Origin: an uncultured Ruminococcus sp.
GTDB taxonomy: Bacteria > Bacillota > Clostridia > Oscillospirales > Acutalibacteraceae
DNA: 39,043 nucleotides
Assembly: GCA_902768825.1 (NCBI GenBank)
Contig: CACXMR010000037.1
Location: forward strand, 1-39,043
Direction of reading: 5' to 3'
Under the pieces are notes generated by a model. It was given only the letters and a program-made list of their open reading frames with translations. It made no database searches and was not told the DNA's origin. Positions 19,738-37,068 of this stretch are shown piece by piece; position 1 is the first letter of the stretch, and every line of letters starts with the position of its first letter. A program made the translations under genes and the position numbers.

Positions 19738-22428
19738 ATGCAGTGTAAAAAGTGCGGCAGTGAATGGAAAACAAATGCACGTGCCAGCCTTATTATACGA
19801 TGCCCTTTCTGCGGCGCCGAGCTTGAGGAGGAAAAGGAGGATAAGCTCACTTTCCAGGATGCAAAGGAGGCTTTGCGATATATCGTAAAGACCTACGGAG
19901 TGGATGTAATCATCGACGGTATTCAGCTCAAGGCTTTGCTCGATGAGTTTATTCCCGATCTCAAGCAGGAAAGAAAGGTTTTTCTCGATGCCTATGAACA
20001 GGGAATGTGTAATGCGCTGTATCTTGCCCACGATGAATCCGAGATCGACAAATGTATAGCGATCCTCCAGTCCATCAAGGTGCTGACGACCGACGCCTGT
20101 ATGGCTGAAAAATGGGCAAGCTATGTGGTTGAGTGCTTTGTCTATGCCCTCGATTGGAACGTACCCATGTTCGGCATAACGCCAAACATCCATATGCACC
20201 AGATGCCTGAAAATATCCATGAGACCAACAGAAGGCTTATCGGATCCGGCTTCCCCTCAGACGAGGAGGGCGACCAGGTTTATCCCGGGCAGGAAGAGGA
20301 AGAGAGAGAGACTCATTCAAACGTATTTAATTTCTTTCATAATAACGATTCAGACGACGATGGTGCGCCTCCCAAGGTGCCTGTAAGCACCAACGGAAAC
20401 GACGAGCCGGAGGAGGCTCCCGAAACAAAGGCTGCCGAGGAACCCGAAAAGCAGCCTGAGACCGAGCCGGAGAAGCCGGCCGAAGAGCAAGAGAGCACAC
20501 CTCACTTCTCCTTTACGGATGAAAGCGGCGAGCGCCATGCTCCGCCTGTGTTTGATTTCACAGACGAGGCCGATGATATTGAAGAGGAGAAGCCTGAGGA
20601 GAAGCCTGAAGAGAAGGCCGAAGAAAAGCCTGAAGAAAAGCCTGAAGATAAGGCCGAAGAGAAGCCTGAAGAAAAAGCCGAAGAGAAGGCTGAAGAAAAA
20701 GCCGAAGAAAAGACTGAAGAAAAGGCTGAAGAAAAGGCTTCTGAAACAGCCGAGGAAAAACCCGCTGAGACAGAGCAGGCAGCTTCCTATAAGGACGAGA
20801 GCGGCCGCTTGATATTTGACTTCAGCGAGGATGAAGAGCCTGAACCCGAGGAAGAAAAATCCGAGGACAAGGAAGAAAAATCAGAGGAGGTCGCTAAGGA
20901 AGAGCCTGAGGAAGAAAAGCCCGCAGAGGCTCCCGTAAGCGAGATCAGCTCCGAAGAAACTAAAGTTGCCGATCATAAGGATCAGGAAGAAAAACCAAAC
21001 CAGATAGCTACAGTGCAGAATCCCTGGATGCAGCAGATGATGCAAAACGGCGATATGCCTCAGCAGATGCCTTGGGGCTACAATCCCTGGATGCAGCAGA
21101 TGCCTCAGAACGGCGAAATGCCTCAGCAAATGCCTTGGGGCTACAACCCCTGGATGCAGCAGATGCCTCAGAACGGCGAAATGCCTCAGCAGATGCCTTG
21201 GGGCTACAACCCCTGGATGCAGCAGATGCCTCAGAACGGCGAAATGCCTCAGCAGATGCCTTGGGGCTACAACCCCTGGATGCAGCAGATGCCGGGTCAG
21301 CCTATGCCGGGTCAGCCCATGCCAGGTCAGCCTATGCCGGGTCAGCCTATGCCGGGTCAGCCTATGCCGGGTCAGCCTGTTCCAAGTCAGCCTGTGCCTA
21401 ACACCGCACCGGCAGATAAACAAGAGGCAAAGCCCGAAGTAAAGGCTCCCCAGCCTGCAGAGCCGGAGAAGCCCGCAGAGCCTGAGAAGCCTGCAGTTCC
21501 CGAAAAGCCCGCAGAACCTGAGCCGGAGAAAAAGCCTGAGGAAAAGCCGGCAGAGCCCGTTAAGGTACCCGCCAGCAGCGCCGGGGTCCCGGAATTATCA
21601 GATGCAAATCTTGTTATGTTCACGGCGGCAGAGGCAGCCACAAAGACCGGCGCCCGTGTCGTTATTCCCGAAGGCGTACAGGCTATCGAGGATTCTGCGT
21701 TTGCAGGAAACAAAACTCTACAGGCTATCGAGCTGCCATCCACACTGCTCAAGATCGGTGAAAGCGCATTTGAAAACTGCGATAAGCTGATTACCATAAA
21801 TCTCCCTGAGGGACTCATCGACATCGGCAGAGGTGCATTTGCAGGCTGCAAGTCCCTTGCAGGCATTGTGATCCCGTCAACCATCAAAAGGATCAGACAA
21901 AGCACCTTCAGCGGCTGCGAAAAGCTCAAGGACTTCCAGATTCCGGCGACTGTCCAGAGTCTCGGCAAGCACGCATTCCTCAACTGCGAGTCCCTGGTCG
22001 AGGTCACTGTACCTGACGGAGTCGAGGAGCTTCCTGAGAACGTATTCAGCGGCTGCCGTTCACTTGTAAAAGCAGTAGTTCCCGAGTCAGTCAAGGATAT
22101 CCGCAAGAGCGTATTCAGCTGGTGCGAGGCTCTTACCACCGTAAACATTCCTGAAGCCGTCACAGAGATCGGCGACGGTGCGTTTACAGGCTGCGGCTCA
22201 CTCAAGACTGTCAACATCCCGAAGAACCTTGAGGCTATTGGCTACGGAACCTTCAGCAAGTGCGGCACACTCAGAACTCTCATTCTTCCTGATACAGTTG
22301 CTAATATTGGTGAGAACGCATTTAATGGTTCAAACCGCACACTTGTAGTTTACTGCTCCGCAAATAACAATTACGTCAAGCGTTATTGCAGGATGAACAG
22401 AGTAAAGTGCAAGAATATAGAGAAATGA
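19738..22428 (+). CDS. Zinc-ribbon protein with Glu/Lys and Met/Pro/Gln repeats and BspA-type leucine-rich repeats, 896 aa
   Basis: Five regions in order. (1) Zinc ribbon C3-x2-C6 / C22-x2-C25. (2) A helical domain to about residue 160. (3) A long acidic linker, including near-perfect EEKPEEKAEEK repeats at about 281-341. (4) Four 21-residue units beginning NPWMQQMPQNGEMPQQ (428-511), then MPGQP pentapeptides (about 518-547) and a Pro/Glu/Lys linker. (5) About ten BspA/LRR_5 repeats (about 625-890; pattern IPxxVxxIGxxAFxGCxxLxxVxIP). No signal peptide or membrane segment is visible, so it seems cytoplasmic, unlike most BspA proteins, which are surface-bound. The repeats suggest a scaffold or protein-binding role, which is inference. 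GGCGGTG lies just before ATG 19738. Confidence 0.8.
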   Translation: MQCKKCGSEWKTNARASLIIRCPFCGAELEEEKEDKLTFQDAKEALRYIVKTYGVDVIIDGIQLKALLDEFIPDLKQERKVFLDAYEQGMCNALYLAHDESEIDKCIAILQSIKVLTTDACMAEKWASYVVECFVYALDWNVPMFGITPNIHMHQMPENIHETNRRLIGSGFPSDEEGDQVYPGQEEEERETHSNVFNFFHNNDSDDDGAPPKVPVSTNGNDEPEEAPETKAAEEPEKQPETEPEKPAEEQESTPHFSFTDESGERHAPPVFDFTDEADDIEEEKPEEKPEEKAEEKPEEKPEDKAEEKPEEKAEEKAEEKAEEKTEEKAEEKASETAEEKPAETEQAASYKDESGRLIFDFSEDEEPEPEEEKSEDKEEKSEEVAKEEPEEEKPAEAPVSEISSEETKVADHKDQEEKPNQIATVQNPWMQQMMQNGDMPQQMPWGYNPWMQQMPQNGEMPQQMPWGYNPWMQQMPQNGEMPQQMPWGYNPWMQQMPQNGEMPQQMPWGYNPWMQQMPGQPMPGQPMPGQPMPGQPMPGQPMPGQPVPSQPVPNTAPADKQEAKPEVKAPQPAEPEKPAEPEKPAVPEKPAEPEPEKKPEEKPAEPVKVPASSAGVPELSDANLVMFTAAEAATKTGARVVIPEGVQAIEDSAFAGNKTLQAIELPSTLLKIGESAFENCDKLITINLPEGLIDIGRGAFAGCKSLAGIVIPSTIKRIRQSTFSGCEKLKDFQIPATVQSLGKHAFLNCESLVEVTVPDGVEELPENVFSGCRSLVKAVVPESVKDIRKSVFSWCEALTTVNIPEAVTEIGDGAFTGCGSLKTVNIPKNLEAIGYGTFSKCGTLRTLILPDTVANIGENAFNGSNRTLVVYCSANNNYVKRYCRMNRVKCKNIEK
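21019..21270 (+). repeat. Four tandem 63-base units within the BspA-like gene
   Basis: Units start at 21019, 21082, 21145 and 21208 and a partial fifth at 21271. Units 2-4 are almost identical at the DNA level; unit 1 differs at several bases (MQNGD for PQNGE). The unit length is a multiple of three, so gain or loss of units keeps the frame. Confidence 0.92.
21289..21384 (+). repeat. 15-base tandem repeats coding MPGQP
   Basis: About six copies of ATGCCGGGTCAGCCT with a few silent changes, ending in the variants VPGQP/VPSQP. They follow directly on the 63-base array, and both are in frame. Confidence 0.88.
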
Positions 22429-29191: not shown

Positions 29192-29534
29192 CAAAAACGA
29201 CAACACAAAAGTTTTGGCAGCAAGCTTGCCGCCAGCGTGACGCCAGCTTGCCGCCAGCGTGACGCTGGACCCCTGTTCGCGGGGTGCGCTGCACTGCGTT
29301 CCGCTTTGTGTACGGACTCAAACTGCACCCTCGCGGTTGTTACTATCTTCTCGCGGAAACAGAATTATAATGCCACGATGACTTTCATCGCGAAATTGGC
29401 ACCGGCGGCTCGCCGGGCGCGGGGTGCGCTGCACTTCGTTCCGCTTTGTGTACGAACCAAAACTACCCTGATCGCGGTTGTTACTATCTTCCCGCGGAAG
29501 CTGAAGTGTAATACCAGAGAAACTTTCATCGCGA
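29192..29534 (+). repeat. Repeat cluster with a 140-base direct duplication
   Basis: 29192-29220 carries the AAAACGACAACACAAAAGTT start of family A. Then two diverged copies of one block begin GCGGGGTGCGCTGCAC at 29279 and 29419, 140 bases apart, and run through TTCCGCTTTGTGTACG, CGCGGTTGTTACTATCTTC and ACTTTCATCGCGA to 29534. A shorter relative lies near 35880-35955. Reading frames here (both strands) lack ribosome binding sites and read as repeat translation. Confidence 0.8.
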
Positions 29535-29589
29535 ACACGGGAGCGGCAGCTTGCCGCCGCGAGCAGCCAACTAAGAAATCAGATGCTCT

Positions 29590-29755
29590 GCCCCCGCGAA
29601 CAGCGTTTTCGGGGGGTGCGGGTGTCCGGTGGACACCTCTGCAGAAGGCAGAAGCACCGACCGAGCGCAGTGAAACAAGTGCCCTTGGGGTGCCGACAGG
29701 CGGGGGTGCCGACAGGCGAGACCGGGGGGACTTTTTCGTAAAAGTCCCCCCGACT
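29590..29755 (+). repeat. Dispersed repeat, family B copy
   Basis: GC-rich, non-coding. It matches the activase-dehydratase spacer at 14545-14820 in blocks: 29590-29663 inverted to about 14576-14664, a 27-base direct match at about 29665-29692, and the terminal hairpin GGGGGGACTTTT / AAAAGTCCCCCC (29726-29751) like 14545-14572. Confidence 0.75.
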
Positions 29756-30550: not shown

Positions 30551-31117
30551 ATGAAAATTCTTGTTGAAACATCAGCCCGTCATGTACATGTTACTCAGGA
30601 AGCTCTTGAGATCCTTTTCGGCAAGGGCGCAGAGCTCACCAATAAAAAGGATCTTTCTCAGCCCGGACAGTTCCTTTGCTTTGAAAAGGTAACAGTAGTA
30701 GGCCCCAAGGGTGAGCTGACCTGCTCTATCCTCGGTCCTGTAAGACCCGCCTGCCAGGTAGAGGTCTCTATGACAGACGCCCGCAAGCTCGGTATCACCG
30801 CTCCTGTAAGAGAGTCCGGCGACGTTGCTAACACTCCCGGCTGCAAGCTTATCGGCCCCAAGGGTGAGGTCGAGATCGCTGAGGGTGTTATCGCCGCTCA
30901 GAGACATATTCACTTTGACACCAAGACAGCTGAAGACAATGGCTTCAAAGACAAGCAGATCGTCAGCGTTGCTGTTGGCGGCGAGGGCAGAAAGCTCGTT
31001 TTTGGCGATGTAGTAGTAAGAGTAAGCCCCAGGTTTGCTCCCGCTATGCACATTGACACCGACGAGGCTAATGCTGCTGCTATCACAGGCAACACCGAAG
31101 GCGAGATCATAGTCTGA
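30551..31117 (+). CDS. pduL: PduL-type phosphate acyltransferase, 188 aa
   Basis: Moves an acyl group between CoA and phosphate (acetyl-CoA or propanoyl-CoA to the acyl phosphate), the first half of ATP formation by acetate or propionate kinase. Two PduL repeats with their zinc-binding histidines are visible: TSARHVHVT (7-15) and AAQRHIHFD (about 116-124), and FGDVVVRVSPRFAPAMHIDTDEANAA ends the domain. There is no N-terminal encapsulation peptide and no microcompartment gene in the window, so it is probably a cytosolic phosphotransacetylase replacing Pta. AAAGGGAGAAG precedes ATG 30551. Transcribed alone. Confidence 0.93.
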   Translation: MKILVETSARHVHVTQEALEILFGKGAELTNKKDLSQPGQFLCFEKVTVVGPKGELTCSILGPVRPACQVEVSMTDARKLGITAPVRESGDVANTPGCKLIGPKGEVEIAEGVIAAQRHIHFDTKTAEDNGFKDKQIVSVAVGGEGRKLVFGDVVVRVSPRFAPAMHIDTDEANAAAITGNTEGEIIV

Positions 31118-31173: not shown

Positions 31174-31212
31174 AAACCGTTTGTCTCAGCAATGCAGGCA
31201 AACGGTTTTTCT
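31174..31212 (+). terminator. Terminator of pduL
   Basis: AAACCGTTTG (31174-31183) and CAAACGGTTT (31199-31208) form a perfect 10-bp stem followed by TTTCTG. Confidence 0.88.
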
Positions 31213-31231
31213 GTTATCAAAGCCAAAATAT

Positions 31232-31872
31232 AACACTCTGTATATTAATCCCAGGTCAAATACAGATAGTATATATTCTCCCACAGCCAACAACCAGACA
31301 ACTATTTGTATAATCATCGTTTATTATACGTTTAGTATATTACAATCCGGATAACGGGAGCATTATTTATCCAGATAGTATATTATTAATAGTGTTTACT
31401 GTTTGTATATAGTATACAATTTGTATATTATACGGTATGTATATTAGTATTCTACTCATCAAGGGAGCATTATTATACAGTTGGTAATATTATTACTGTT
31501 TGTATATTATCAATCACTCACTTTAAATACTATTTGTATATTTTTGATTATCACTACAACTTGTATTCTACTATCATGCTACAGCATTATTATTGCAGAT
31601 TGTATATTATCTTGGCTTTAATACAGTTTGTAATATCAGAAAGCACCAGTCATTACTATTTGTAATTATCACAACAACTATACCATTAGTATATTTACTA
31701 CAAGTAGTCTATTTTATAAATATATTACCGATTGTATTCTACTAAGAGTATGTTATTCTTTAACTATACAGTTTGTATAACAAATATATAGCCCAATCAA
31801 AATACAGCTTGTATAATCGCCAGGCATTTTACAGTTTGTATTTTTTACTTTAAGTATATTCTACTATAAGTA
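31232..31872. repeat. Array of 11-bp TAC-N5-GTA dyads before pncB
   Basis: An AT-rich, gene-free stretch of about 640 bases with 20 exact TAC-N5-GTA copies, starting at 31261, 31327, 31397, 31415, 31431, 31476, 31494, 31528, 31555, 31622, 31654, 31681, 31696, 31726, 31740, 31767, 31803, 31830, 31846 and 31862. Four more with one mismatch start at 31232, 31300, 31370 and 31594. The most frequent form is TACAGTTTGTA, often followed by TATTA or TAAT. Six neighbouring pairs are exactly 27 bases apart and three exactly 16. The ends TAC/GTA are reverse complements, so each copy is a short dyad, as expected for a dimeric DNA-binding protein. Candidates are operators of pncB-pncA or origin-like iterons. 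The array runs to 25 bases before ATG 31897. Confidence 0.85.
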
Positions 31873-31896
31873 TAATCCAGAAAGGACAGATAATAA

Positions 31897-33102
31897 ATGA
31901 AGTTAGAACCCATCGTCACCTCTCTGCTTGACACCGACCTGTATAAGTTTAATATGGATCAGGTCATTTTCCACAAACACACCGATCTCTGCGGCGAATA
32001 CTATTTCAAGTGCCGCAATAAGGGCGTCACCTTTTCTGAGGATGTTGTCCGAGAGATCAACGAACAGATAGATCACCTGTGCACCCTCAGATTTTCCAAA
32101 GCCGAGCTTGACTATCTGCGGTCCATACGCTTCATCAAGCGTGATTACGTTGAGTTTCTCCGTCTGTGGAGACCTATCAGGGAATATGTCAATGTGACCC
32201 GAAGCGACAGCGGAGAGCTGGAGATCGTTGTAAACGGTCCGTTGTTTTCGGCAATGCAGTTTGAGATATATCTCCTTGAGATCGTAAACGAGGTTTATTT
32301 CAGGATGAACTTTGATTATGATAGCCTCAAGCGGTCCGCTGAGGAACGACTCGACCAGAAGATAAAGGATTTCAACTCCGGCAAATACACCTTCAAGTTT
32401 GCAGAATTCGGGTGCAGGAGAAGGCTCTCCAGGGAATGGGAGGACACCGTGGTCAGGCGCCTTACCAGCGAGACAAAAAACTGCGTAGGCACGTCAAACG
32501 TATACCTTGCCATGAAGTATGACCTCACTCCTATCGGCACCTATGCCCACGAGTTTGTCCAGATGTATCAGGGCATCGATCAGATACCCCTTGCCTACAC
32601 TAACCAGTACGCCATGAATGACTGGTACGACGAATACAAGGGCGACAACGGTACTGCATTGACCGACACCATAACCACAGATCTTTTCCTGCTGGACTTC
32701 AACCGCTCCATGGTAAACAACTACTCAGGTGTGCGGCACGACAGCGGCGATCCCTATGAGTGGGGCGAAAAAATGATCCGCCACTATGAGAAATACGGCG
32801 TTGACCCGAAGAGCAAGCTTCTGCTGTTCAGCGACAGTCTTGATTTTGACAAGGCTCAGAACCTTTATGACCACTTTATCGGAAGAACAAAGGTCTCCTT
32901 CGGCATCGGCACCTTCTGCTCCAACGATACCAGCGAAAACGCCCTTAACATCGTGATCAAGCTCCAGTATGTAAACGGCAGACCTGTAGCCAAGCTCTCT
33001 GACAACCCCGAAAAGGCAATGTGCCGTGACGCTGATTATCTTGATTATCTGAAAAGCTCGGTTGCCTTCCGCATCAAGCGTGAGGCCGACAGAAAGGAGT
33101 AA
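31897..33102 (+). CDS. pncB: Nicotinate phosphoribosyltransferase, 401 aa
   Basis: Makes nicotinate mononucleotide from nicotinate and PRPP with ATP, the entry step of the Preiss-Handler route to NAD. The Escherichia coli-type length and motifs are present: LLDTDLYKFNMDQVI (10-24), KFAEFGCRRRLSRE (167-180), GTSNVYLAMKYDLTPIGTYAHEFVQM with the phosphorylated His at about 218, and GVRHDSGDPYEWGEK plus LLLFSDSLDF. AAAGGA precedes ATG 31897 at about ten bases. pncA follows after four bases, so they form an operon. Its upstream region is the TAC-N5-GTA array; no clear single promoter can be picked out within it. Confidence 0.96.
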   Translation: MKLEPIVTSLLDTDLYKFNMDQVIFHKHTDLCGEYYFKCRNKGVTFSEDVVREINEQIDHLCTLRFSKAELDYLRSIRFIKRDYVEFLRLWRPIREYVNVTRSDSGELEIVVNGPLFSAMQFEIYLLEIVNEVYFRMNFDYDSLKRSAEERLDQKIKDFNSGKYTFKFAEFGCRRRLSREWEDTVVRRLTSETKNCVGTSNVYLAMKYDLTPIGTYAHEFVQMYQGIDQIPLAYTNQYAMNDWYDEYKGDNGTALTDTITTDLFLLDFNRSMVNNYSGVRHDSGDPYEWGEKMIRHYEKYGVDPKSKLLLFSDSLDFDKAQNLYDHFIGRTKVSFGIGTFCSNDTSENALNIVIKLQYVNGRPVAKLSDNPEKAMCRDADYLDYLKSSVAFRIKREADRKE

Positions 33103-33106
33103 TGAC

Positions 33107-33640
33107 ATGAAAAACATACTTGTAGTTGTAGATATGCAAAAGGACTTTGTTGACGGCGCCCTCGGATCTGCGGATGCCGTTGCCATCGTTCCGGCTGTAG
33201 TTAAAAAAATAGAAGGCTTTGAGGGAGATATCTATGCGACACTGGACACCCATTATGAGGATTATCTCAGCACCATGGAGGGCAAAAAACTCCCTGTGCC
33301 CCACTGCATAAAGGATACGGAGGGCTGGAAGCTGGACAGTGCCGTGGCTGAGGCTCTGAGCAAAAAAGCCTACACTCCGGTGGAGAAGCTTACCTTTGGT
33401 TCGGTCACACTGCCGCTGCTCATAGAAAGGGCAGCCGGCGGCGATGAGCTGAACATAGAGCTAATCGGTCTGTGCACGGATATATGCGTTGTATCCAATG
33501 CACTGCTGCTCAAGGCTCATTTCTGCGAATCAGAGATCACCGTTGACGCTGCCTGCTGTGCAGGTGTCACACCGGAAGCCCACAAAGCCGCCCTTGCAAC
33601 CATGAAAAGCTGCCACATCAATGTTATCAACGAAGTCTGA
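33107..33640 (+). CDS. pncA: Nicotinamidase (isochorismatase-like hydrolase), 177 aa
   Basis: Deamidates nicotinamide to nicotinate, feeding PncB. The catalytic triad is Asp9 (VVVDMQKDF), Lys94 (EKLTFGS) and Cys127 (GLCTDICVVSNAL). The metal ligands Asp47, His49 and His66 (TLDTHYEDYL; VPHC) are those of true nicotinamidases, which separates it from other isochorismatase-like enzymes. ATG 33107 has AAAGGAG eight bases upstream and is four bases after the pncB stop; an earlier in-frame start at 33062 would lie in pncB. Confidence 0.93.
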   Translation: MKNILVVVDMQKDFVDGALGSADAVAIVPAVVKKIEGFEGDIYATLDTHYEDYLSTMEGKKLPVPHCIKDTEGWKLDSAVAEALSKKAYTPVEKLTFGSVTLPLLIERAAGGDELNIELIGLCTDICVVSNALLLKAHFCESEITVDAACCAGVTPEAHKAALATMKSCHINVINEV

Positions 33641-36351: not shown

Positions 36352-37068
36352 TCAATATGGCACTACGGCGTCCAACACCTGACCGATGGGGTCACGGATG
36401 ACGATATCCGCCTGATTGTCAAAGGATGTTGCGGACTTGTTTATCAGGACGATCTTGCTTCCGTTGAAATAATTCAGGAACCCTGCCGCAGGATAAACAT
36501 TCAGTGAGGTGCCGCCGATGATGATTACGTCAGCCTTCGATATGGCCCGGACTGCGCCGCTCACGGTCTTGTCGTCAAGCCCCTCCTCATAGAGCACCAC
36601 ATCGGGCTTTATGATGCCGCCGCAGGTACACTTGGGAATGTCCTTGGTGTCGGTGACGGCTGACAGATCGTAAAACTTGTGACACTTCATGCAGTAGTTT
36701 CTCAGGACAGAACCGTGAAGCTCATAGACCTTTTTGCTCCCTGCGGCCTGGTGCAGACCGTCGATATTCTGAGTGACTACGGCTCTGAGCTTGCCCTGCT
36801 GCTCCAGCCTTGCAAGAGCCAGATGAGCCTTGTTGGGCTTTGCCGAGGTGCAGATCATCTTTTCACGGTAAAAATCATAAAACTCCCCTGTTTTTGTCAT
36901 AAAGAAGCTGTGGCTCAGAATGGTCTCCGGCGGATACTTATACTTCTGGTTATAAAGGCCGTCAACGCTCCTGAAATCAGGAATACCGCTTTCCGTTGAC
37001 ACTCCTGCTCCGCCAAAAAACACAATGTTGTCACTCTTCTCGATCACCGTTTTCAGTTCATCATACAT
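36352..37068 (-). CDS. cobB: NAD-dependent protein deacylase, Sir2 family, 238 aa
   Basis: Removes acyl groups from lysines, consuming NAD and releasing nicotinamide and O-acyl-ADP-ribose. All core motifs are present: GAGVSTESGIPDFRS (20-34), TQNIDGLH (99-106), catalytic His118 in ELHGS, zinc cysteines 126/129 and 147/149, and GGTSLNVYPA. At the position where CobB/SIRT5 desuccinylases have Tyr-x-x-Arg this protein has Tyr64-x-x-Tyr67, so simple deacetylase activity is more likely. ATG 37068 has GGGGAGGG upstream and is 33 bases after the transglutaminase stop, so the two are probably one transcript. Confidence 0.95.
   Translation of the reverse strand: MYDELKTVIEKSDNIVFFGGAGVSTESGIPDFRSVDGLYNQKYKYPPETILSHSFFMTKTGEFYDFYREKMICTSAKPNKAHLALARLEQQGKLRAVVTQNIDGLHQAAGSKKVYELHGSVLRNYCMKCHKFYDLSAVTDTKDIPKCTCGGIIKPDVVLYEEGLDDKTVSGAVRAISKADVIIIGGTSLNVYPAAGFLNYFNGSKIVLINKSATSFDNQADIVIRDPIGQVLDAVVPY

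Follow-up and report, generated by a model that had tools for sequence, protein, structure and literature searches.

The window, by which we mean the whole stretch of 39,043 nucleotides analysed here (from the genome of an uncultured Ruminococcus sp., G000), carries on its plus strand a gene of the phosphate propanoyltransferase (PTAC) family (188 aa, 30551..31117), followed by pncB (31897..33102), which encodes a nicotinate phosphoribosyltransferase of 401 aa (NF003704, 498.5 bits against a cut-off of 379; PF04095 and PF17767), and by a gene for an isochorismatase-fold protein (33062..33640; PF00857, 73 bits), a probable nicotinamidase (pncA). The pncA product reaches only 19.5 bits with the NCBIfam PncA model, under the cut-off of that model, and shares 87% identity with its homologue in another genome of the genus, G041, the match beginning at 33107, which is the likely start. 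An inverted repeat at 31174..31208 (plus strand), with 13-base arms that are 92% complementary and a T-rich tail behind them, has the sequence features of a probable terminator of the preceding PTAC-family gene; the terminator scan did not report it. Between this repeat and pncB extends an AT-rich spacer (31222..31880, GC 0.269), in which a pattern search of the window places an array of 20 exact copies of the dyad TAC-N5-GTA (31261..31872); neither the spacer nor the dyads are assigned to a strand. Dyads 1 to 20 occupy, in order, 31261..31271, 31327..31337, 31397..31407, 31415..31425, 31431..31441, 31476..31486, 31494..31504, 31528..31538, 31555..31565, 31622..31632, 31654..31664, 31681..31691, 31696..31706, 31726..31736, 31740..31750, 31767..31777, 31803..31813, 31830..31840, 31846..31856, and 31862..31872, the final one before pncB, whose end is 25 positions from the start codon. 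The successive start-to-start spacings are 66, 70, 18, 16, 45, 18, 34, 27, 67, 32, 27, 15, 30, 14, 27, 36, 27, 16, and 16.

The recount agrees with the initial annotation in the number of exact copies, all 20 of which lie within 31261-31872, and extends it in the number of one-mismatch copies, four of which had been claimed; copies at 31232..31242, 31300..31310 (27 before dyad 2), 31370..31380 (27 before dyad 3), and 31594..31604, likewise without a strand, fit that description, while the region holds six in total. The spacing of 27 occurs four times among exact dyads alone and, as had been stated, six times when one-mismatch copies are included, with the spacing of 16 occurring three times on the same count. 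Dinucleotide shuffling of the 659-base region, repeated 5,000 times, left 0.66 dyads on average (sd 0.80, maximum 5) against the 20 observed, and 100 dinucleotide shuffles of the whole window gave a mean of 3.76 and a largest count of 12. Outside 31222-31880 the window has no exact TAC-N5-GTA, and within the region this is the most enriched of all 64 x 16 three-base dyads (20 vs 1.0 expected).

Several other features of the window may be recorded here. A gene for a Sir2 family NAD-dependent deacylase (NF001752, above cut-off; 36352-37068), another NAD-linked gene, lies about 2.7 kb past pncB-pncA. Within an 896-aa ORF (19738-22428), several nested tandem repeats occupy 20590-21522, and their periods (12, 36, 63, 15, 18, and others) are divisible by three. 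The stretch 29223-29718, upstream of a uracil-DNA glycosylase gene, contains a direct repeat of 141 bases in 1.8 copies (29278-29535), flanked by perfect tandem repeats (22 and 16 bases).

A genome-wide count of the dyad, as proposed in the initial annotation, finds pairs at the characteristic spacings only at the pncB array and at one other small cluster, and the dyad density is therefore, judged by these pairs, not a general property of the genome. Single sites in the 2.49 Mb of this genome number 291 against about 240 obtained by scaling the window shuffles, so there is no marked general excess; the reversed-pattern control gives 845 sites, the reversed pattern differing in sequence make-up. 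All three spacing-16 pairs are located inside the pncB array, as are four of the six spacing-27 pairs, the other two falling in a single cluster on another contig, and the two kinds of pair together define two array loci in the genome. The second cluster comprises four sites (G000:C35:6395-6529) and belongs to an operon with a frame of about 103 aa that starts MTRETAK and is here called ORF105 (G000:C35:6058-6363, locus L213; also L109:6062-6373).

Across 64 genomes of the genus, the arrays recur: 112 spacing-16 pairs were found against six in reversed-pattern controls and 155 spacing-27 pairs against 23, each kind being present in 45 of the 64 genomes. An even sample of 298 family genomes yielded a spacing-16 pair in 15, namely in three of the five that belong to the genus and in 12 of 293 others, these 12 having one match each where the reversed pattern matched about 30; spacing-16 pairs in other genera of the family thus stay at control level, the search outside the genus being confined to spacing 16, so that arrays built on other spacings could escape it. 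When a stricter 17-base pair pattern was applied to GTDB species genomes, 29 of the 73 stretches matched held a cluster of at least four sites. Two of these, from Phocaeicola (L156) and Chitinophaga (L199), were dropped because they lack the spacing pattern, and the remaining 27 lie in MAGs labelled Ruminococcus, Ruminococcaceae, Clostridiales, Clostridia, or Oscillospiraceae, several coinciding in coordinates with contigs of the genus set. A viral origin was considered and discarded: the 17-base pattern occurs in 12 viral contigs, none with an array at the match, and two loose clusters on one of them (L133) lie away from the match and were dropped. The arrays are so far seen only in one Ruminococcus-like genus.

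A census drawn in good part from the spacing-16 and -27 matches listed, together with loci collected by means of the ORF105 protein, comprises 72 distinct arrays of at least four sites, with a median of six and a maximum of 20. More than any other locus, the operon lepA - DUF3783 - GIY-YIG - (recQ) - (alkD) - ORF105 - ABC transporter contributes to it (38 of 72), a share that is inflated because loci were also collected by the ORF105 protein; five arrays precede pncB, four are found at tatD/M16 peptidase, four at prfC/DUF3592, and two at dnaJ, and 19 lie elsewhere or have no assigned locus. A function common to the adjoining genes is not evident. With frames of less than 150 aa ignored in the scoring, 50 arrays lie between tandem, seven between divergent, and six between convergent genes, nine of the 72 being without both neighbours assigned; 57 of the 63 that could be scored (the tandem and divergent ones) are thus placed upstream of at least one gene, and one of the convergent cases, L267, is doubtful in that, with a 325-aa frame that extends inside the array, it would count as tandem. 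In the ORF105 operon, one, two, or three successive spacers may be filled by arrays, often from the stop codon to the next gene, and three or more sites are found close to 21 of the 30 ORF105 loci. The arrays are nonetheless not needed there, because the ORF105-ABC stretch stands without nearby sites in six genomes (recQ-alkD-ORF105-ABC in G017, G061, and G066, alkD-ORF105-ABC in G050, and ORF105-ABC in G002 and G024).

The 267 sites used to define the motif give the palindromic consensus wATAC-N5-GTATw, in which the five inner bases vary, so that copies have in common six fixed bases and an A/T flank only. A histogram of start-to-start spacings has maxima at 14, 16-17, and 27 for the collected arrays, a biased set since many of these arrays were found, among the matches listed, through spacings 16 and 27. 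Because of this bias, the spacing census was repeated on loci collected independently of spacing (30 ORF105 loci and three pncB loci), where 177 consecutive spacings of at most 60 include 12 of 14-15, 53 of 16-18, five of 19-25, and 57 of 26-29. The spacing of 27 corresponds to about 16.5 plus one helical turn. Within the biased set, a spacing of 14 stands beside one of 16-18 in 49 cases against 25 expected, and never beside another 14.

The fixed bases are also conserved in two orthologous array pairs. In the well-diverged orthologous pair G014/G006 (79% identity, five sites), none of 30 fixed positions has changed, against four of 25 inner positions and 33 of 131 in the rest of the alignment; for G015/G071, which are closely similar and share 16 sites, the corresponding counts are 0/96, 4/80, and 9/315. 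Summed over both pairs, the six fixed bases show no substitution in 126 positions against 50 in 551 for other bases, with one-sided Fisher values of 0.0007 for G014/G006 (37/156 non-fixed positions changed), 0.057 for G015/G071 (13/395), and 0.0004 combined. The strongest of these tests rests on one diverged pair, G014/G006. Sites were marked when present in either member of a pair, so that the loss of a site would have counted, and the test took orthologous pairs only, alignments of non-orthologous arrays being left out.

The association with pncB depends on gene order. A pncB protein search extending over the own genome and 24 further ones of the genus found the order pncB-pncA with an array in G000 (20 sites), G008 (10), G041 (12), and G071 (16), and a further 16-site array at a contig end of G015, before a cut pncB. 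The pncB contigs of G015 and G071 are almost identical, a stray contig in either bin being possible, and were therefore counted as one lineage. The last array base lies 25, 26, 27, 27, and 36 positions from the pncB start in these five arrays, and the genes upstream of them are of three different kinds; because the distance is held at 25-36 despite the differing upstream genes, the array goes with pncB in the pncB-pncA order. An array before pncB in relatives, on which the initial annotation had staked its reading, is thus kept in G008, G041, G071, and, with the gene cut, G015, and is absent from G013, which has the pncB-pncA order, and from all five loci with the order pncA-pncB (G005, G006, G014, G016, and the other G015 copy). 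The accompanying proposal of an operator of NAD salvage proved too narrow, since pncB adjoins only five of the 72 arrays and NiaR is found in none of the 64 genus genomes. NiaR is the kind of regulator to be expected for a niacin-salvage gene; its 3H domain (PF02829) was detected in 0/64 genus genomes and, among 14 control genomes, in two, those of B. subtilis and T. maritima. The array looks less like a switch dedicated to pncB than like a landing platform for a DNA-binding protein.

On balance, we regard the array as probably, though by no means securely, a cooperative operator platform for a dimeric DNA-binding protein of this genus. A cooperative operator was among the possibilities raised in the initial annotation, and of that idea the quantised spacings, the base-specific conservation, and the lack of stem covariation support the cooperative binding of a protein, whereas the tie to NAD salvage as such is not supported. 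According to this proposal, a dimeric, sequence-specific protein of the genus would recognise the palindrome wATAC-N5-GTATw, and dimers on neighbouring dyads, whose starts are separated by 14, 16-17, or 27 bp, would bind cooperatively, as is suggested by the setting of sites at fixed helical offsets; alternating, quantised spacing is, we infer, what contacts between bound dimers would be expected to produce. Many dimers would coat the spacer before a small set of genes, pncB among them. The pncB promoter is probably situated inside the array, since the last dyad comes 25-36 bp before pncB in all five arrays, and a filled array would then block this promoter, or free it once the protein dissociates.

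Bacterial operators usually consist of one to a few sites, and no described counterpart of such arrays in bacteria was found in the open-access literature. The operator reading is opposed by the negative outcome of the searches for a binding protein, by the lack of an evident common function of the adjoining genes, by the six of 63 scored arrays that lie between converging genes (L267 being doubtful), by the filling of two or three successive spacers of one operon in several genomes, which is unusual for operators, and by the loci that do without arrays, pncB-pncA in G013 and ORF105-ABC in six genomes. A wider formulation, which we put forward tentatively and hold to be a lesser possibility, is that a protein restricted to the genus assembles extended, helically phased nucleoprotein arrays at a small number of chromosomal loci, in several spacers of one operon and in some convergent spacers, and thereby silences genes locally or organises the chromosome under a spacing code of its own (14 / 16.5 / 27 bp). 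Because they combine 4-20 sites and a strict spacing code with recurrence at the same genes in many species of one genus, the arrays would in any case offer a clean natural system for the study of cooperative DNA occupancy, and with motif and arrays so well defined, a single pull-down could identify the protein.

Some described regulators resemble parts of this proposal. DitR, a TetR-family repressor of Stenotrophomonas maltophilia, is reported to bind the inverted repeat CATACnnnnnGTATG, a homodimer being proposed, with three likely sites in one promoter (PMC9342713). The half-site ATAC, inverted across a 5-base gap, is that of wATAC-N5-GTATw, whereas three sites in one promoter stand against up to 20 here. 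ComK recognises K-boxes made up of two AAAA-N5-TTTT boxes lying 8, 18, or 31 bp apart (PMC3536758), and shares the palindromic AT-rich box, the 5-base gap, and the discrete helical offsets; it differs in its box gaps, which compare with 3, 5-6, and 16 bp in the present arrays, and in the half-site, which is TAC here.

The binding protein was sought among several candidates. A TetR-like dimer would be a fair guess by analogy, because the TetR repressor DitR binds CATACnnnnnGTATG; in contrast to the DitR case, the six TetR loci of the own genome (stretches of 2.5-3.1 kb) contain no exact dyad. ORF105 is close to genus-specific: it has matches in 57 of the 64 genus genomes, as one copy in 56 of these 57, and a sample of 120 family genomes yielded three with a match, of which one lies outside the genus. 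It belongs to no Pfam family, and its predicted model (mean pLDDT 88.7) has no PDB match at E <0.001. Its occurrence in G002 and G017, genomes 99 and 100% complete in which no spacing-16 or -27 pair was found, and the missing PDB match led to its not being accepted as the binder. An HTH_3 protein inserted in the ORF105 operon beside the array (L169:2174-2839), with a probable membrane part as judged by eye, was likewise rejected, being complete among the collected loci only in L169 and L226, partial in L250, and weakly matched in L120. With regard to NrtR, a Nudix-related regulator, two arrays lie near Nudix-domain proteins (174 and 144 aa), in which Pfam finds no DNA-binding domain.

Among the rival explanations, the one that survives best, though we consider it rather unlikely, casts the arrays as platforms of a centromere-like or nucleoid-organising kind that merely happen to sit before genes, for which parS clusters, RefZ motifs, and RacA sites provide models. 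The presence of only two array loci in the own genome, with single sites in no marked excess genome-wide, would suit such a role, as would the five or six of 63 arrays between converging genes and the recurrence of arrays at the same genes across species. RefZ is a TetR protein with few palindromes and a non-transcriptional role, its five RBM motifs in Bacillus occupying conserved positions relative to oriC (PMC6657595). RefZ differs from the present system, which has 4-20 sites per locus at varying loci. Against chromosome-organising platforms, the loci that bear arrays vary by species and some loci lack them, and a close fit to the pncB start codon would not be expected. In two complete genomes that belong to other genera, moreover, orthologous genes stand at differing distances from dnaA: in G085 (2.5 Mb, dnaA near 0.5 kb), lepA is found at 97 kb, recG at 412 kb, and tatD at 846 kb, and in G032 (3.0 Mb, dnaA near 0.8 kb), lepA is found at 1.77 Mb, recG at 0.21 Mb, and RF3 at 2.88 Mb.

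The dyads could instead be extragenic palindromes of the REP/BIME kind, non-regulatory elements spreading and persisting in spacers and perhaps bound by a general nucleoid protein. REP/BIME elements likewise place palindromic units in operon spacers and between converging genes, and the filling of spacers within operons, the arrays between converging genes, and the presence or absence of an array at the same locus depending on species all agree with this; we nevertheless judge it improbable. REP/BIME units are longer copies of one palindrome, whereas no longer unit has been copied here, the dyads having in common six bases and an A/T flank with varying inner bases; a whole-array search of the own genome found no second copy, the only hit being a 19-base match (E 0.78). 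The spacings are, in addition, quantised, and orthologues keep the fixed bases while the rest changes. The variation of the inner five bases also disfavours the iteron-like region put forward in the initial annotation. Plasmid iterons and parC/parS arrays are long sets of protein-binding sites and thus resemble these arrays in holding many sites, but their repeats are alike over the whole length, and neither a rep nor a par gene occurs among the adjoining genes run through Pfam (lepA operon, pncB, prfC, tatD, and others).

Very little credence can be given to an element acting at the RNA level, the dyads forming small hairpins in a transcript. The RNA of the 626-base array folds better than all 20 of 20 dinucleotide shuffles (z -2.8), as would be the case for any dyad-rich sequence, whereas compensated variants of the stem are at, near, or below chance with the exception of two AAC-GTT (2 observed vs 0.9 expected; TAA 21 vs 20.2, TAG 2 vs 2.6, TAT 83 vs 113, and none for CAC, GAC, TCC, TGC, and TTC). 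Inner and flanking positions pair about as independence predicts in the 267-site counts, and the arrays have no common orientation relative to genes over 61 clusters. An array of methyltransferase targets acting as an epigenetic switch is equally hard to sustain: Helicobacter pylori J99 has the methylation motif RTAY-N5-RTAY (PMC12679398), of which ATAC-N5-GTAT is one particular form, but methylation sites need no quantised spacing, the window has no sites outside the array, and the T at position -1 in about a quarter of the sites falls outside RTAY. That chance or the base composition of an AT-rich spacer produced the array is practically inconceivable, since nothing more than the AT-rich context speaks for it, 20 dyads are far beyond the shuffled maximum of 5, and the pair counts exceed their reversed-pattern controls genus-wide.

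A separate inverted repeat, TACGCATTGTATATT-N8-AATATACAATGCGTA, was observed with identical arms in G078 (L257:4926-4963), G076 (L258:5132-5169), and G001 (L259:4821-4858), and contains two dyads 27 apart. Inspection by eye found no obvious regulator gene adjoining it in these three genomes; in two of the three, it follows a 565-aa frame that appears, again by eye, to be isopropylmalate synthase-like.
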